A program made the position numbers and the translations under genes. The notes under the pieces were generated by a model, which saw only the letters and a program-made list of their open reading frames with translations, was not told the DNA's origin and ran no database searches. Source: Leucothrix arctica (GTDB taxonomy: Bacteria; Pseudomonadota; Gammaproteobacteria; Thiotrichales; Thiotrichaceae). Taken from it: a stretch of 64,000 nucleotides of DNA. The stretch lies in contig NZ_QGKL01000019.1 of assembly GCF_003172895.1 (NCBI RefSeq), positions 62,001 to 126,000 on the forward strand, written 5' to 3'. Below, piece after piece: positions 44,909 through 57,287 of this stretch; within the stretch, counting starts at the first letter, position 1, and each line of letters begins with the position of its first letter.

Positions 44909-47900
44909 TCAACTAGCAGCCTTAACCATTCCAAGTTGACTACAGTAAACATAACCCGCTTCATTCACTTCATCGCCATAAATAGGAAGACTGATTTCGC
45001 CAAATATCAACGCTGCTTTTTCTGGACTGCGAGTGGTCACTTCCCCAAGCAATTTCTCATAGTCACGTATCAGCCATAACCGCTTTTCTTCTTCAGGACT
45101 CAGCTCTTCCCTTCTAATGCCATATTCTTTTTCTCTAACAATTGGCTCTTCGTCAAAACGTAAACTCTTTTCAGCAAAGACCCATTTGTCATCTTTAGGA
45201 ATTTGATACAAAGTAATCTGGTTCCCTCCTTCACGAAATGGCGTGAAGTGTTGCGGCATTCCCGTCAACCACCAACAGCCACGTAACCAACCTTCTAACG
45301 CTTCAGGCCCTAATTTTTCATAAGCAGTAAGTAGCTGATGAATAGCTTCATGCTCTAAATCTGCGAGATTTTCTTTAGGATTAAGCTGCTTACTCCTAGT
45401 TATTCTTGGTTGCGCATCGAGCTTTTTCTTAAGCTCTTCAACATCAACCAACTGCTTTAAATCATGAAATGCTAGTAGGTTGTCAATTGACTCGTAACCC
45501 GGATAACAGAAAGCAGGTTTGCCATTATCAACCAAGCCTTTGAAGTTATATTGCATTAACGCAATGTTATCTTGCTCAATATCTTGGCCTGAATCTCTAT
45601 GACGCAGTACTCGACCTGCTAACTGAATGATAGAGCGATAAGAAGAAGGCTCTACTACCGCCCAGTCAAAGTCATGATCTCGCCCAACCTCTTCGACAGG
45701 CGTTGCCACCAAAATGAAAATCACATTAGGCGCGGTAATATGCTTTAAATGTTGCTTGATAATAGGGTTTTGGAAAATTGCTTGAGGATTATCTTTGTCA
45801 CGCTTCAACACAGCATCCAAGTGTTTTTCTTGCTCACTGCGTATCAATAAAATTTGCTGACTGTGGTAAGCCATTGCTCTGACCTCTACGCCATCTGGCC
45901 ATTCTTCACCTAACAAATACTTAGTCAAATCAACACATGGTTTAATGTTGGCCACTCTTACAACACCAAAGCTCACCTGTTTTTGTGATTGTTCATCTAA
46001 AACAGAATGCTGTTGATGCTTTGTCGCAATGGCCTTTTGTACTTCACCATAAGCTTGCTGTCTCGCGGCATCGCTATCATCTTCAGTTGTCTGAACAGGT
46101 ATGACGATAGCTTTACGTTTTACTTTTTCCGCACTCAGTTTTGTGACTCGTTTGCTAACAAACTTTTCATGAGCAACCTTATAATCACTCATTCCATGAT
46201 CGTCACTAGCACCATTCACACTGACTACCTGAGTTACAAATTCATCAACCCATGCACAGCCTATAATTGGACTGATATTTCTAGTGGTGGAAAAGACAGC
46301 CCAACCTGCTTGATAAGCATTGTAATAACCTTCAGCTAAATCAGGAGGAATTGTTGCAGAGGAAATCATCACCTTGCGCCCTAACATCCCTGCTAAGTGA
46401 ATTAAGCGCCCAATGGCGATTAGATCTTTTCCATCAAAATCGTCAATTTCATCAATCACTAAATCTGACGACATCAGACGCAATGTGGGAAGGATATAGC
46501 GTCCGCCACGTTTGGTTTCTGTCGCCGCCATCATGTGATCAATCGTGCAACTCAATACGGGCGCGTATAAAAACTGACGATCTTTCTTGGTTGTTAAAAC
46601 GGTCTGTAAATCGTCTTGAGGAATAGTGGTTTCAAAATCTATTTCATTATCTAAAAGTGCTTCCAAAGACTCTGAGCCGTAATCATCAATTGCCTCCTGA
46701 TCTACTCCGCGCTTATTTTTATTGTGCAAATCAAGAACGGCTCGTGATCCAATTAAAACAGCTAACTCGTCATTGCTAAGACCAATACGTTCACGGTACT
46801 CATCGCCCGTTTGAAGTGTTAGCGTTCTAAGGCCCAACGCAAGAACAAAACGTAAGCTGTCCATCTGAGGAGACAGTGCCCGCATGATTTTTCCATTGGC
46901 AAATGTTTTTCCTTTACCCGTACTCGCCATATTTACCGCAAAAAAACCAAAATGATCAGGATCTTGTTTCTCTTGAGCACTGCGCCATGACATAATTTTA
47001 CTTGCCGCCGTATCCTGCCAACGAAACTTATCAGGACTTTTCTGCTTCAACGCTTTTACGTCATAAGCTCTTTCTAGCTCACTGTTCTTACTTTCAAATG
47101 CAGGAAGTAAATGAGCGGTTCGTACTGCCTGCTTTGCTACTCCAACTAAGTGTTCATCCAATTGCTGTTTAAGTTCTTTGGTTTCTCTATCTGTATTCGC
47201 AAAGAGCTTTAGGTCACTCTTCCACTTTGTAGATGACGGTTGCGAAGAGTAATAGTGATCACCCAGCATTAATGCTAAACGCGATTGATTTAAAATAAGG
47301 CGCCAACTTCCATCCACTAATGCAGACTCCAATAGTGGTAAACAATCTAAAAGTTTTTTTGCTGTTTTCTGGGTGTAACTGAGCCATGCTTTGGAATCAC
47401 TTGGTAAGCCATTTTCATATTTGAAACATTCAGCTAAACCTTCTGAAAAATCTTCCTCATCAAACTTATTTTCATAACCCCATTTTTGCGTGATAGCGCT
47501 AAAAAGCTTTTGGATATCTGACTGAGGAAGCGCCTTATCTTTGTAATTTCTTTCTGAATGCTTCTGTCTATCATTTAGCAAAGGCAAACGGTGATGAGAG
47601 ACTATCAACCACCCTAACATTGAGGCTGCATTGGGTAATTTGGCTAGTGGCTTTAGCTTTGCCAAATCCTTCTCAGACTTCTTATCACCGATCGAGCTTA
47701 AGTCTTGAGCGTATATTTCCCCTTTTGCCAAACGGCTGAGCCACTCTTCATCTGAAGCTTCTTTATCTCCCATGTTTATGTAGAAGTTAAGAAACAACAG
47801 AGAAATCCATTCATGACGTAGCGGGTCACCAATGATTTTGTTTTCTTTCAACTTGTTCTGGAAAAAAACAGAAGCCTTACCCCAGTCATGAAACAGGGCC

Positions 47901-48256
47901 GCCATTGCAGTCAAAGACTTTATCAAAGGCAAATAATGCCAATCATTCTCCCACTGGGTATTCATAATTGTTTTACGCGTACGGTTGACTGGAACATTGC
48001 CGTAATAGTCAAAACGACTCCGATTCCCCACAATCCAAACCAACTCACTACGACTACGCGACCGTATCCAATGACAACTCACCGCCGTATTCTTACTCGC
48101 GGTCTTACGCAGCAGCTTCTTAACCGCATCCAGCCCCTCATTAGTTATCACCGTTTGCCATGTGCGCATCCCAATACGGTTGGCAAACGCATCTAACACC
48201 CGACGTGTTTTGGGTAGTGCTTTCTTTTCGCACTCACAAACAAATGTGACCATCAT
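44909..48256 (-). CDS. cas3: Type I-F Cas2-Cas3 fusion (adaptation subunit, HD nuclease and helicase)
   Basis: 1115 residues. The N-terminal Cas2-like domain (about 1-95; MMVTFVCECEKKALPKTRRV) is fused to Cas3, as in all type I-F systems. The HD nuclease signature is LTAMAALFHDWGKASVFFQN with His123-Asp124. The SF2 helicase follows, with Walker A MASTGKGKTFANGK, DEAD-like LVIDEIDDFDG and motif III ISSATIPPD. Later QLAGRVLRHRD is motif VI. It joins Cas1 for spacer capture and degrades target DNA. The start overlaps the cas1 stop by 4 bp (ATGA), and two adjacent ATGs are available. Confidence 0.97.
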   Translation of the reverse strand: MMVTFVCECEKKALPKTRRVLDAFANRIGMRTWQTVITNEGLDAVKKLLRKTASKNTAVSCHWIRSRSRSELVWIVGNRSRFDYYGNVPVNRTRKTIMNTQWENDWHYLPLIKSLTAMAALFHDWGKASVFFQNKLKENKIIGDPLRHEWISLLFLNFYINMGDKEASDEEWLSRLAKGEIYAQDLSSIGDKKSEKDLAKLKPLAKLPNAASMLGWLIVSHHRLPLLNDRQKHSERNYKDKALPQSDIQKLFSAITQKWGYENKFDEEDFSEGLAECFKYENGLPSDSKAWLSYTQKTAKKLLDCLPLLESALVDGSWRLILNQSRLALMLGDHYYSSQPSSTKWKSDLKLFANTDRETKELKQQLDEHLVGVAKQAVRTAHLLPAFESKNSELERAYDVKALKQKSPDKFRWQDTAASKIMSWRSAQEKQDPDHFGFFAVNMASTGKGKTFANGKIMRALSPQMDSLRFVLALGLRTLTLQTGDEYRERIGLSNDELAVLIGSRAVLDLHNKNKRGVDQEAIDDYGSESLEALLDNEIDFETTIPQDDLQTVLTTKKDRQFLYAPVLSCTIDHMMAATETKRGGRYILPTLRLMSSDLVIDEIDDFDGKDLIAIGRLIHLAGMLGRKVMISSATIPPDLAEGYYNAYQAGWAVFSTTRNISPIIGCAWVDEFVTQVVSVNGASDDHGMSDYKVAHEKFVSKRVTKLSAEKVKRKAIVIPVQTTEDDSDAARQQAYGEVQKAIATKHQQHSVLDEQSQKQVSFGVVRVANIKPCVDLTKYLLGEEWPDGVEVRAMAYHSQQILLIRSEQEKHLDAVLKRDKDNPQAIFQNPIIKQHLKHITAPNVIFILVATPVEEVGRDHDFDWAVVEPSSYRSIIQLAGRVLRHRDSGQDIEQDNIALMQYNFKGLVDNGKPAFCYPGYESIDNLLAFHDLKQLVDVEELKKKLDAQPRITRSKQLNPKENLADLEHEAIHQLLTAYEKLGPEALEGWLRGCWWLTGMPQHFTPFREGGNQITLYQIPKDDKWVFAEKSLRFDEEPIVREKEYGIRREELSPEEEKRLWLIRDYEKLLGEVTTRSPEKAALIFGEISLPIYGDEVNEAGYVYCSQLGMVKAAS

Positions 48257-49212
48257 GAGGCAGCATCACCTTGGCTAATCGTTTTCACACAATCAAACAT
48301 AAAGTCCAAAGTCTTGTGCTGGGTGAAGTTCTGCAAACATTGCTGACGAAACTCTTGTTCAGTTGCGCCTTCTTTCGCGCAAATAAACGCCCACGGTAGT
48401 ATCAGGGTATCTTTCACCAAATCAGCCACGTCAAACACCAACGCGCCACGCCGTGTTTTTCCATGAAGTACCGCAAAGCCGTGTGGAATACCCAACACCC
48501 AAAGCGTTGTCGCGGCTAGGCCATAAGCGAGGTAGTTACCGTGATTTAAAAATGCGTTCGCGTCATCAACACTGTCATGCTGGCGAACGAAGTCTTTTTG
48601 TTTGGTACGGTTTGCGGCTATTTTGTAGAGGCTTTTGGTGAGCTGGGCTTCGATAAGCAGTAGGTTTTGTACACTGTCACTATCCGCTATTTTAGAAGAA
48701 AATCGTTCCAATGCTTTAGCAATATCTGGGTCTTCAACATTGAATCCTTCATTTTTCAAATCGCGGTCTTTTGACCAGACTTGCTGCATGTAGGTGATAC
48801 GAAACTGCTGGACTTGTTTTGCGGCGGCGAGTCGTTTTTCATCATCAAACCAAAACTTCATCCACCCTTGAATGTATTCTGTGGGTCGGTATTCGCTTTG
48901 TGGGGATAACCACTCGACTTCGCTTGCCGCTATTAACGGCGTTCCCCCACTACCACTAAAACCGATCAACACACCAGCAGATGCCAACATGCGCACCGCT
49001 GCTTGCGTGATGGATGTACCTGTTCCAAGTAGGATGCAGGTGGTGTTGGCAATGGGGATATTCCAGTACTGTTTTTCTACTTTCTCTTCCGTGAAAAATA
49101 AGACACGCCCGTCTTTTTGCATGACACGGCATTTTTCCAAATAGTAGATATTGACGCGTTTTGAGTGCAGTATTGCTTTTAAGTCTGTAAGGTAATCCAA
49201 GATTACACCCAT
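48253..49212 (-). CDS. cas1: Type I-F CRISPR integrase Cas1
   Basis: 319 residues. Cas1 integrates new spacers at the leader end. Probable catalytic residues are Glu188 (LLIEAQLTKSLYK), His250 (GFAVLHGKTRRGALVF) and the Asp residues of DVADLVKD (261-268), matching the Glu-His-Asp triad of I-F Cas1. GTGTSITQAAVRMLASAGV (64-82) is the conserved N-terminal beta-sheet region. First gene of the operon, so the operon promoter lies within 49213-49522. There is no good Shine-Dalgarno before its ATG; an inverted repeat occupies that place. Confidence 0.97.
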   Translation of the reverse strand: MGVILDYLTDLKAILHSKRVNIYYLEKCRVMQKDGRVLFFTEEKVEKQYWNIPIANTTCILLGTGTSITQAAVRMLASAGVLIGFSGSGGTPLIAASEVEWLSPQSEYRPTEYIQGWMKFWFDDEKRLAAAKQVQQFRITYMQQVWSKDRDLKNEGFNVEDPDIAKALERFSSKIADSDSVQNLLLIEAQLTKSLYKIAANRTKQKDFVRQHDSVDDANAFLNHGNYLAYGLAATTLWVLGIPHGFAVLHGKTRRGALVFDVADLVKDTLILPWAFICAKEGATEQEFRQQCLQNFTQHKTLDFMFDCVKTISQGDAAS

Positions 49213-50237: not shown

Positions 50238-50624
50238 ATGAAAATTTTAAACGCAGCAATCGTAACAACAGTTCTAGCACTTGGCCTTGCAGGTAACTCA
50301 ATGGCAGCACCAAGCCATGCTGATACGCTTAAAATGCAGAAGTCTGCACAGAGCAAACATCAGAAAGCGAAGCAGCCAGCTAAGAAAATCATTGTTCAAA
50401 AGAAAGCGCAGAAGCAAGTGGTTAAGCGCGTTGTAAAAGTTGTATCTAAAAGAGCACCGGTCAAGAAAGTAGCAAACCGCTCTTACCGTGTTCGTCCGGG
50501 TGACACGCTGTCTCGCATAGCGGCTCGTAACCATGTATCAGTACAAAAGCTGGTTAAGTTAAACCAACTTTGGGGCAAGAAAGCGAACAACCTACGTGTA
50601 GGTATGTTTATCCGCCTCGCTTAA
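50238..50624 (+). CDS. Secreted LysM-domain protein, copy 1
   Basis: 128 residues. The signal peptide MKILNAAIVTTVLALGLAGN has probable cleavage after NSMA (residue 23). A strongly basic linker (about 30-80; runs of KKxxxQKKAQKQVVKRVVK) leads to one C-terminal LysM domain (83-128; YRVRPGDTLSRIAARNHVSV). It should bind peptidoglycan, with the basic linker possibly contacting anionic polymers. It shares its signal peptide, ribosome site (AGGATATAACCATG) and terminator with the paralogue at 56826. Confidence 0.92.
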   Translation: MKILNAAIVTTVLALGLAGNSMAAPSHADTLKMQKSAQSKHQKAKQPAKKIIVQKKAQKQVVKRVVKVVSKRAPVKKVANRSYRVRPGDTLSRIAARNHVSVQKLVKLNQLWGKKANNLRVGMFIRLA

Positions 50625-52892: not shown

Positions 52893-53322
52893 TCAGTCTG
52901 CTTTTAAAACATTGCAGACACCAGCAACAGATACACCTACCTGCTTTGCTATATCCACTTTACTAACACCCTGCTCTACCAGTGCCAGTATCTCAGGCTT
53001 CTTTGCCTGTGCTGTTGGCTTGCGTCCAGTGTATGCACCTTTAGCCTTAGCCGCTGCAATACCTTCAAGTTGTCGCTCTTTTCTAATATGAGTTTCAAAC
53101 TCAGCAAAGGTTGCAGCATTCCAAGGAAGGCGCGACCGTGTGGCGTACTGGTATCTAGACTTTGATCAAGTACCATAAGGTTAATTTCTCGCGTCCCTTA
53201 GTTGTTGTCCCGCTTTGCTTGTCGCTGAATACCTTGTCACAACCTGCGCCCTGTACTCTTTTTAACTGAGTAGTTGAATCTTGATCTAATGATGAAACGC
53301 GAATATATTCAACTAATAACAT
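52893..53322 (-). pseudogene. Serine recombinase (Tn3-resolvase type) with deleted catalytic middle
   Basis: The N-terminus is intact from 53322 (YIRVSSLDQDSTTQLKRVQG, including the catalytic-Ser region, then VFSDKQSGTTTKGRE). The frame then jumps straight to VLDQSLDTSTPHGRAF, so about 60 residues of the catalytic core are missing. A further one-base frameshift follows (GML...FAEFETHIRKERQLEGI). The DNA-binding tail is still readable to a stop at 52893: GAYTGRKPTAQAKKPEILAL, then VSKVDIAKQVGVSVAGVCNV. It marks past mobile-element activity next to the accessory genes at 53.6-55.4 kb. Confidence 0.9.
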
Positions 53323-53581
53323 TATAAAATATTCTAAATAAGCCCTGAGATGTTTTTGTAACTACTTCTAAAAACTATAAAAAAACCCTATTTATAGACT
53401 ACTCGATACCCTAACAACCTTCTAACAAGGGTGTACTCTAAATGTAAATTCGAATGTTGCACCTAAGCGTTAATCACCTTAGGAAGGTTATGTTAATCTG
53501 GATTCCGTTTATTACACGTTATGTAATCAATACAGGTGTATTTATACGTAAGGATATAGTGCATCAACATCAAGGATAGAT

Positions 53582-54043
53582 ATGTCAAATACTACATTCG
53601 GCGAAGTTATTAGCAGAATCTCAACCGAAAAAGAATACTTGTTAGCATTGGGTGCTTGTGTTCTTCAATTAATCTCTGCCGAATGGAATGCGGCTTACTG
53701 CTGTGAGCGTATGCAACCGGATTATATTAGAGATGTGTCTGATCCTGACCAGAGAATTATGGCAAGGAATATAGCTGAGAAACTAGTTAGTCTAACAAAG
53801 AATCTCCCAGATTCAGATGATAAATCTGAGCTAACAAATGCAGCGGATATTTTCCTTTCTTTGGTAAAAGAAGAAAGGAATTTTCTATACCATTCTCATC
53901 CAATATCCTACGATGGAAAGACGGCGTTAAAAAAGAATCAAAGAATATTTACCATCGAAGAATTAAAAGAAACTACAGTCAGAGCCTTTGACTGTAGTGG
54001 AGTTCTCAATAAATCGCTGCATGGTTTTCTCAGGCAGCCATGA
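53582..54043 (+). CDS. Unknown protein A, 153 aa, with HEPN-like Arg-x4-His motif
   Basis: A soluble, mostly helical protein that I do not recognise. Helices at about 13-45 and 62-100 lead into the segment LVKEERNFLYHSHP, where Arg99-Asn100 and His104 form an RNxxxH pattern as found in HEPN RNases. The C-terminal 45 residues (FTIEELKETTVRAFDCSGVL) form further helices. No catalytic motif of another class is visible. It is the first of three same-strand genes that each show a related motif near the end of a helix. Upstream lie 259 bp of AT-rich spacer and a dead recombinase. The call HEPN-like is inference from one motif. Confidence 0.6.
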   Translation: MSNTTFGEVISRISTEKEYLLALGACVLQLISAEWNAAYCCERMQPDYIRDVSDPDQRIMARNIAEKLVSLTKNLPDSDDKSELTNAADIFLSLVKEERNFLYHSHPISYDGKTALKKNQRIFTIEELKETTVRAFDCSGVLNKSLHGFLRQP

Positions 54044-54050
54044 CAAGCTA

Positions 54051-54068
54051 AACATAACGAATTATGCG
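54051..54068 (+). repeat. Motif ACATAAC...TTATGCG after gene A, repeated after gene C
   Basis: ACATAACGAATTATGCG directly after gene A is echoed by ACATAACATCCGATTATGCG at about 55534-55553, 130 bp after gene C. Each can form a small CATAA/TTATG hairpin, and the second is followed by another dyad CGAAGC...GCTTCG. They may be cassette boundaries or simply transcription terminators. Confidence 0.4.
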
Positions 54069-54215
54069 TAGTTACTGTGATTACTAATTGTGTTTTAGTA
54101 GCGCTATTTAACCACTATTTCGCGTGCTAATATCAGGTGAAATCATATTAATGGTATGTTTAATGAATGAAGAAATGGCACCTGAGCTCTATGCAAACAC
54201 CGGCAGTAATCAGTA

Positions 54216-54782
54216 ATGATGAGCATAACCTATAAGATCAACAAAGCTATTCGTATGACAACAGCACTCGAGAATTTCTGGTCAAGCTCTAGAGGATGGG
54301 CTCCTGAGTCAGCTGCTGAATTGCTAGCAGAAGCAAGACTTGATCGACAAATATCTTTTGCGCATACACTGTCAGATTATCTTGAACCTTTTCCGGAGGG
54401 CTCAGCTGAGGCTCGTATAATTCTTGGGTATACAACGTTACGAAGCATGGCTGAAGGAGCATTGAAGTTATTCTTTTCCGTTTGGTTTGAGGATTATCAG
54501 GCAGATGTAGACGCAGCGAGACGCAAAGGAGAACTAGTATCACCAGAAGATGTGAAGTTTGACTATCTGATATTTTTGTATGTTAGTAAGTTTGGTAACC
54601 AGTATCAAGATTTTCTTAGACAAGTTCAATACCGAGGGAATGCAATCCATCATTTCAAACATCGAGATATTGGCACTCAACAAGAGTTAATTGCAGACAT
54701 TGAAAGTTATTGTGATTTCTTAACAGCTATTAATGATGGACTGCCGTATCCAGATGAGATGTATAACCCAGCTCTAGCCTAA
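54216..54782 (+). CDS. Unknown protein B, 188 aa, with HEPN-like Arg-x4-His motif
   Basis: Helical and soluble; not recognised by family. TLRSMAEGALKLFFSVWFED (75-94) resembles the first core helix of HEPN/DUF4145-type proteins. VQYRGNAIHHFKHRDIG carries Arg140-x4-His145 at the corresponding later position. The start is uncertain: ATG 54216 and the next codon ATG are available, as is ATG 54255 (MTTALENFWSSSRGWAPESA), and none has a clear ribosome site. It lies 172 bp after protein A and 60 bp before protein C. Charged, Gly-poor composition suggests a cytoplasmic protein. Confidence 0.6.
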   Translation: MMSITYKINKAIRMTTALENFWSSSRGWAPESAAELLAEARLDRQISFAHTLSDYLEPFPEGSAEARIILGYTTLRSMAEGALKLFFSVWFEDYQADVDAARRKGELVSPEDVKFDYLIFLYVSKFGNQYQDFLRQVQYRGNAIHHFKHRDIGTQQELIADIESYCDFLTAINDGLPYPDEMYNPALA

Positions 54783-54842
54783 CTAAACGTTCGCCATCCC
54801 GATAAGGCTGGTGAGGAAAGACTTTAAATAGCAAAGGAAACT

Positions 54843-55406
54843 ATGAAGATAATATCGGGCTTAATTAGTATTATATTTATTATTCTAGCTTCTCTACATA
54901 TTTTTGTAGATGCAGTAACAATTGATGTGATCGCAATTATGCTAATTGTTTTGGCTTCTTTACCTTGGACACTACCCTACCTAAAATCTTTTGAGCTTCC
55001 AGGTGGGGTAAAAATTGAATTAAAAGATGTACAAACTGCAATTGAAAAAGTGTCTGGAGGTGACGACGAACCTTCGGTAGAAACATCAGATTATGATTAT
55101 CTAAAGGTAATATCTGCTCACGACCCAAGTCTTGCTCTTGTAGCAATTCGCATTGAAATTGAAAAAGCTGTCCGCTCTACACTTGATAGTGAGGAACGCC
55201 CAATTCCTTTATCGAGAGCTATTAATGAGTTAATTTCAAACGGCACCATTACACGAAGTATTGCTTCAGGTTTAACAGAATTTATACAATTAGGTAATCA
55301 AGCTGCTCATGGAGTTGAGGTTGATGCTCAAGCAGCAGACTATGTAATTGAAAATGCAGCAAATATATTAAAACCATTTAAAGAACAATTAGCTAATGCC
55401 AATTAA
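54843..55406 (+). CDS. Unknown membrane protein C, 187 aa, DUF4145/HEPN-like C-terminus
   Basis: Two closely spaced hydrophobic helices (about 3-20 and 28-46) anchor it. The motif FELPGGVKIELKDVQTAIEK (50-69) follows, then a helical cytoplasmic domain. Its LALVAIRIEIEKAVRSTLD helix and FIQLGNQAAHGVEVDAQAAD segment (Asn152...His156) closely resemble DUF4145-type HEPN domains, where the usual text is RNxAAHG. Here the Arg position is Gly, so ribonuclease activity is doubtful and a binding role is possible. It is preceded by an AAAGGAAAC ribosome site, so the start is secure. Last gene of the three. Confidence 0.68.
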   Translation: MKIISGLISIIFIILASLHIFVDAVTIDVIAIMLIVLASLPWTLPYLKSFELPGGVKIELKDVQTAIEKVSGGDDEPSVETSDYDYLKVISAHDPSLALVAIRIEIEKAVRSTLDSEERPIPLSRAINELISNGTITRSIASGLTEFIQLGNQAAHGVEVDAQAADYVIENAANILKPFKEQLANAN

Positions 55407-55531
55407 CAAGTAGCTGCATCGAAAAAACTACTCGCTCTCGCTCGCATTTTTCCGCTGAGCAATGCGTAAGAAAGGTATTCAAACCTAACCAAAGTCTTCT
55501 TTTTTTGATCGTTTGAATGATTCCAGGTACT

Positions 55532-55553
55532 AGACATAACATCCGATTATGCG
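55532..55553 (+). repeat. Second copy of the ACATAAC...TTATGCG motif
   Basis: Companion of the element at 54051-54068; the two enclose genes B and C. The loop differs in length by three bases. No other copy was noticed in the window. Confidence 0.4.
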
Positions 55554-55646
55554 AAGCTACGAGGACGACTTTCCGCTTCGTATGGTTTCAAAGAAACGAC
55601 TCCATCAAGTTGTAAATCTCTAGCAAGGGTATATCCTAGCCACTAA

Positions 55647-56825: not shown

Positions 56826-57287
56826 ATGAAAATTTTAAACACAGTGATCGTGACATCAGTACTAGCGCTTGGCCTTGCAGGTAACTCAATGGCTGCACCT
56901 AGCCAAGTTCAGTTGCTTAAAATACAACAGCAAACGGCTCAAGCTAATAAACAAGCAGCACAGCAGAGAGCAGCTCAAATTCAACGTCAGGCTGCACAGC
57001 AAAAAGTAGTTCAGGCTAGACAGCAAGCGATAAAGGCACAGCAGCTACAGGCTGCTAAACAAAAAGCCGCTCAAGCTCAGCAACAAGCAGCTAAGAAACG
57101 CGTTGTTGTTCAAAAAGTACCAAGTAAGCAAGTGGCGCAAAGTAACTACCGTGTAGCGACAGGCGATACGCTATACCGCATTGCACAACGTAATAACGTT
57201 TCAGTAGAGACACTGGTTAAGCTAAACGGCCTTTGGGGCAGCAAAGCTAGCAACCTAAGCATAGGTGCAATCATTCGTCTTAAATAA
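56826..57287 (+). CDS. Secreted LysM-domain protein, copy 2
   Basis: 153 residues. The signal peptide MKILNTVIVTSVLALGLAGN is nearly identical to copy 1. The linker (about 33-105) is different in character: Gln/Ala-rich with QQAAQ-type repeats (AAQQRAAQIQRQAAQQKVVQ) that probably form a long helix, instead of the Lys-rich linker of copy 1. The C-terminal LysM domain is YRVATGDTLYRIAQRNNVSV onwards (about 108-153). It binds peptidoglycan. Same ribosome site and terminator as copy 1, 6.6 kb away. Confidence 0.92.
   Translation: MKILNTVIVTSVLALGLAGNSMAAPSQVQLLKIQQQTAQANKQAAQQRAAQIQRQAAQQKVVQARQQAIKAQQLQAAKQKAAQAQQQAAKKRVVVQKVPSKQVAQSNYRVATGDTLYRIAQRNNVSVETLVKLNGLWGSKASNLSIGAIIRLK

Follow-up and report, generated by a model that had tools for sequence, protein, structure and literature searches.

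Do three neighbouring genes of Leucothrix arctica, named A, B and C here, form one undescribed defence system, or did they reach the same chromosomal site separately? The question arose from an initial annotation of a 64,000 nucleotide stretch of contig NZ_QGKL01000019.1 (positions 62,001 to 126,000 of the forward strand; this whole stretch is called the window below), which described the genes as a small cassette of two potential HEPN-type RNases and a membrane-anchored, probably inactive partner. The three ORFs are found on the plus strand exactly where that annotation had placed them and code for proteins of 153, 188 and 187 amino acids. The motifs that it had read are likewise present: R99-N100 together with H104 in A, R140 together with H145 in B, and GNQAAHG, which lacks the Arg, in C. 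All features of the locus are listed in Table 1.

Table 1. Features of the locus. Positions refer to the window.
Feature	Position	Strand	Evidence
Serine recombinase (resolvase) remnant, split over several frames, middle part missing	52893..53361	-	Pfam Resolvase and HTH_7 on separate fragments
Gene A, 153 aa, predicted HEPN-like, R99-N100-x3-H104	53582..54043	+	ORF, 6 invariant homologues, model
dif-like motif copy 1, ACATAAC...TTATGCG, arms 4 bp apart	54052..54068	+	
21-codon ORF, stop codon TAA overlapping the start codon of B	54151..54216	+	Sequence
Gene B, 188 aa, predicted HEPN-like, R140-x4-H145 and E80-x3-K84	54216..54782	+	
Gene C, 187 aa, hydrophobic N-terminus followed by DUF4145; His present, Arg absent	54843..55406	+	
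attC-like integron recombination site, starting at the C stop codon, with GTA instead of GTT in the right box	55402..55474	+	
dif-like motif copy 2, same orientation as copy 1, arms about 7-8 bp apart	55534..55553	+	

Co-occurrence of the families was analysed with profiles of A, B and C on 62 loci outside the window (48 for B, 9 for A and 5 for C), each comprising some kilobases. Two of the three families were found together at none of these loci, except that on two E. kobei plasmids a distant DUF4145 gene, 14% identical to C, lies two genes before the A homologue. The trio is thus not a conserved block. Searches that covered 63 to 349 genomes returned few members of each family, and comparison of the three families with hhalign revealed no significant profile-profile link. 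In the window, A and B are 172 bp apart, B and C 60 bp. The initial annotation had named homologues that never co-occur as the outcome of a gene-neighbourhood search that would speak against a cassette, and this is largely what was found. Because the families do not co-occur in the 62 loci, A is separated from B by this distance and C ends on its own attC site, neither the view of the genes as one cassette or system nor a shared function of A, B and C is supported.

Gene B belongs to an unnamed family with more than 45 members in bacteria and one archaeon. Homologues were found at 44 places in genomes sampled with one per species, from Bacillota to Planctomycetota and in one Methanoregula MAG, and they are also located on plasmids of Geobacillus, Massilia, Sphingobium and Rhizobium. 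The nearest homologue is a gene of a Chlorobaculum MAG with 64% identity. An alignment of 41 sequences showed that E80, Y94, P110, N142 and H145 are invariant (41/41), while R140 is present in 38 and K84 in 35 sequences; the Rx4-6H motif of the HEPN superfamily is therefore conserved in the B family. The position after R140 is occupied by Arg in 39 of the 41 sequences and by Gly only in the window gene and its closest relative. Upstream of B, the junction with the 21-codon ORF reads TAATG and a clear ribosome-binding site is not seen; the short ORF is possibly involved in translational coupling, or it is a remnant.

HEPN proteins carry the Rx4-6H motif where helix 3 ends and an acidic residue, often as part of Ex3[KR], in helix 2, with a variable insert between them (PMC3710099). 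The AlphaFold model of B (34 sequences, pLDDT 92, pTM 0.89) is nearly all helical, with E80 and K84 in helix 61-89, R140 and H145 closing helix 131-146 and a last long helix at 155-175. This corresponds to the HEPN layout, the helix numbering being our own reading. A Foldseek comparison of the model with the PDB and a viral library, run without a HEPN positive control, gave no significant match of any kind.

Gene A had no match in 62 genomes of the same order, and its homologues are encoded on three plasmids and three viral contigs. On the Photobacterium plasmid the homologue adjoins genes for a BsuBI/PstI-type restriction enzyme and a methylase. R99, N100 and H104 are invariant across six A sequences, which corresponds to an Rx4-6H motif with a polar residue after the Arg. 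E34 is invariant in the same six sequences and is not followed by Lys or Arg at +4; the Ex3[KR] motif occurs in many, not all, HEPN families. The motif ends the penultimate helix (79-104) of the A model (4 sequences, pLDDT 79). This weaker model gave no significant Foldseek match in the PDB, again in a search without a HEPN positive control.

The bare R-x4-6-H pattern is found in 11 of 25 similar-sized ORFs of the window; presence of the motif alone is therefore weak evidence, and it is its conservation within the families that carries the case. Searches of A and B against Pfam, NCBIfam, PADLOC and PHROGs returned no family beyond weak noise; the B family, conserved at HEPN-type catalytic positions, is missing from all four libraries. 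The HEPN models of Pfam matched single members alone, at noise level, the PADLOC models for known defence systems gave weak noise and no match, and an Rfam search revealed nothing relevant. Since Foldseek retrieved no solved HEPN structure for either protein, we infer the HEPN fold of A and B from motif and layout. The HEPN-like nature proposed earlier is thus well supported for B, by conserved motif and model layout, and moderately for A, by the invariant RNxxxH and its place at the end of the penultimate helix; the fold assignment itself is indirect for both. As the founder of a new family of solo HEPN RNases, B is a good candidate and A a weaker one.

No constant partner gene was found among the neighbours of the B homologues. 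The genes upstream of the plasmid homologues had been considered as partners and were dropped, as they do not align with one another. Members of the family were met beside Gabija, Thoeris, McrBC, Lamassu-like and type I R-M genes. A Gemmataceae MAG has the gene order HsdM-HsdS-[B]-Ymh-GajA, and a GajA-like gene is located near the homologue in Xanthobacter. The B homologue is adjoined by ThsB in Pseudomonas sp. GM80, by McrC in a Bacteroidetes MAG and by an LmuB-like SMC protein in an alphaproteobacterial MAG. These neighbours were chosen by eye among approximately 40 loci without a background rate and are therefore guilt by association. Searches of viral contigs and phage records identified no homologue of B, and viral contigs contained none of C. 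In several Bacillaceae (five loci) the homologue lies within or next to the region of the flagellin gene, which appears to be a hot spot for insertions; in one of them, Aquibacillus, it is broken into pieces. That B founds a widespread unnamed HEPN RNase family (Pseudomonadota, Bacillota, Planctomycetota, Chlorobi and an archaeal MAG) of single-gene anti-phage effectors, which would move among defence islands, plasmids and variable chromosomal sites, is a possible reading that we put forward tentatively.

For C, previously listed without a recognised family, Pfam identified a match to DUF4145 (PF13643), which is a HEPN family, with E=8.9e-6 and 26.1 bits against a curated cut-off of 23.1. The reported loss of the Arg and the hydrophobic N-terminus were both seen. 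Mean Kyte-Doolittle values are approximately 2.6 at residues 3-21 and 20-38, and C and the three other members of its subfamily have kept the motif His and lack the Arg of catalytic DUF4145 proteins. The best PDB matches of the C family profile are HepN toxins, with marginal E values of 0.04-0.06. Since the His is kept and the Arg is absent, a role in RNA binding or sensing is more likely for C than RNase activity. Membrane-anchored DUF4145 proteins were already described in 2013 (PMC3710099); C is a protein of this known kind, carried as an integron cassette.

Partial copies of the element at the end of C, 80-87% identical, were found in the same genome and in one relative, beside unrelated genes (for an HNH protein and a UDG-like gene). 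The copy after the HNH gene is 83% identical over 71 bp to the estX-aadA2 interval of a class 1 integron, the location of the estX attC, and a covariance model trained on the window site plus three copies of the genus recovers the estX attC at 83 bits. The site directly after C is thus a homologue of the estX attC found in class 1 integrons. The assumed attC stem shows pairing in 81% of the cells, compared with 26-48% when slid; the shuffle control (71/500, with four sequences) was not significant. The right box reads GCGTAAG in the window and GCGTTAG in the estX attC, so that the GTT is not intact and the site may be inactive.

Within the window, the covariance model, which covers one attC subtype, detected no site after A or B and no second site with which the one after C could form an array or CALIN (at least two clustered attC). 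With a single attC found, and with the dif-like motif being another kind of element, the idea of a full integron array at this site was dropped. Scans with a strict attC consensus and for relaxed hairpins lacked specificity, and neither yielded a clean attC for A or B. On another contig (C44, 1-3452) the genome encodes an integron integrase adjacent to lysS and preceded by an IS91-like copy. This IS91-like element contains a transposase and a tyrosine recombinase, the latter present in three identical genome copies (contigs C7, C34 and C44). Isolated single attC sites of the genome are located near position 180955 of contig C25 (UDG-like gene) and near 50715 of contig C6 (HNH gene), far from the integrase and outside an array. 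In the work of Darracq et al. and Getz et al., as summarised in PMC12409362, expression of Vibrio integron cassettes conferred anti-phage activity for approximately 10-16% of those tested, so that a defence role for such genes would be plausible. A membrane DUF4145 gene in the form of a cassette would fit the view of integrons as stores of stress and defence genes (PMC12409362).

Lateral acquisition, which the initial annotation had deduced from the neighbouring recombinase and a flanking repeat, is supported. The serine recombinase is indeed dead, a minus-strand pseudogene in several frames; an intact relative of 182 amino acids is encoded in a genome of the same genus (G028, locus L098, 5344-5892). 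The repeated motif was confirmed as well, and none of 100 shuffled windows contained it. ACATAAC...TTATGCG occurs in three copies genome-wide, two of them as the direct repeats at this locus, and it is also found near a HicB antitoxin gene of the same genome. Its arms are identical to those of a 19-bp sequence resembling the dif site of the genus, the identity as dif being our reading. In relatives the motif marks the boundary between a left flank that is shared and a right flank that differs, and it adjoins type I hsdR genes. The motif may be a site of the Xer type, or it may mark where an integrating element ends. In genome G028 the element of window positions 55466-55555 is found again (locus L097, 4760-5797), there next to the gene of a YhcG/DUF1016 nuclease. 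The whole variable stretch is flanked by two LysM-domain genes that resemble each other and lie on the same strand (50238-50624 and 56826-57287), and their DNA has further similarity in the same genome (contig C37, 252367-252799). Type I-F CRISPR genes cas2-3 and cas1 are located at 44909-49212 of the window, with Cas1fv as the best-scoring model for Cas1.

Taken together, A, B and C are probably three independently mobile accessory genes that were gathered at a variable chromosomal site, B being a stand-alone HEPN-type RNase, A a similar protein and C a membrane DUF4145 cassette. Separate acquisition is favoured over one new defence system because the families turn up separately and C ends on an integron site. 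The trio could still be a single abortive-infection or toxin system, in which two active HEPN RNases are restrained by an inactive membrane partner that senses infection. The genes are adjacent on one strand, the gap between B and C is short, with both genes between the two motif copies, and the E. kobei plasmids carry an A homologue two genes after a DUF4145 gene. This would be quite improbable in view of three families that are not found together elsewhere, the distance between A and B, the B homologues without a constant partner and the attC that terminates C.

A smaller unit, in which B and C form a mobile element of 1.5 kb between dif-like direct repeats, inserted by XerCD or by a recombinase like the decayed neighbour, with A arriving earlier or separately, is also unlikely. 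The repeats enclose exactly B and C, their arms equal those of the dif candidate, and the junctions in the relatives would fit; however, the arm spacings of 4 and about 7-8 bases differ from the usual Xer spacer of 6 bases, an empty site was not seen and C carries its own attC. We consider it unlikely, too, that A and B fall outside the HEPN proteins altogether and are small helical proteins of other function, with an R-x4-H incidental to RNase activity. The frequency of the bare motif among small ORFs and the lack of a significant match to any HEPN family, in fold or in sequence, are consistent with this possibility, whereas in the B family, which is spread over many phyla, the motif forms the block of highest conservation and is paired with Ex3K in an earlier helix, and RNxxxH is invariant in the A family.

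In the favoured explanation, B would most likely act as a stand-alone, metal-independent RNase of the HEPN type; in its model R140 and H145 close the penultimate helix, and E80 lies on a helix before it. We infer that it would dimerise and, once some trigger fires, probably cut tRNA or mRNA as an abortive-infection or dormancy effector, possibly in phage defence. A, the smaller protein, would be of the same general type. C would be a membrane-anchored DUF4145 protein, more likely binding or sensing RNA than cleaving it, which came in as an integron gene cassette with its attC still attached. An unlikely three-gene system thus leaves the list of candidates, and the sharper target is B, a compact one-gene family.

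Compared with known RNases of the HEPN superfamily (PMC3710099; PrrC/RloC, RnlA/LsoA, Abi proteins and MNT-HEPN toxins), A and B share the Rx4-6H motif at the end of the predicted penultimate helix and the mobile and defence contexts, and B in addition the Ex3K in an earlier helix. They differ from them in that they match no curated HEPN family and no solved HEPN structure by Foldseek and have no known regulatory partner or fused domain. After the Arg, B has Gly or Arg and not the usual Asn, Asp or His. C resembles the membrane-anchored DUF4145 proteins of V. cholerae and others (PF13643) in its hydrophobic N-terminus and its C-terminal HEPN-type domain, which scores above the cut-off; unlike these, its subfamily lacks the motif Arg, and it has two hydrophobic segments with LPW/LPGG instead of a single helix with the WP signature. 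Neither A, B nor C matches the sequence of the integron-cassette HEPN protein (PDB 3jrt), and the attC in the window is single and has an altered right box, but C shares with that protein the arrangement of a HEPN-type gene followed by attC. B likewise gives no match to the model of the Ymh HEPN family (PF09509), whose gene is nevertheless the direct neighbour of a B homologue in the type I R-M/Gabija neighbourhood of the Gemmataceae MAG.
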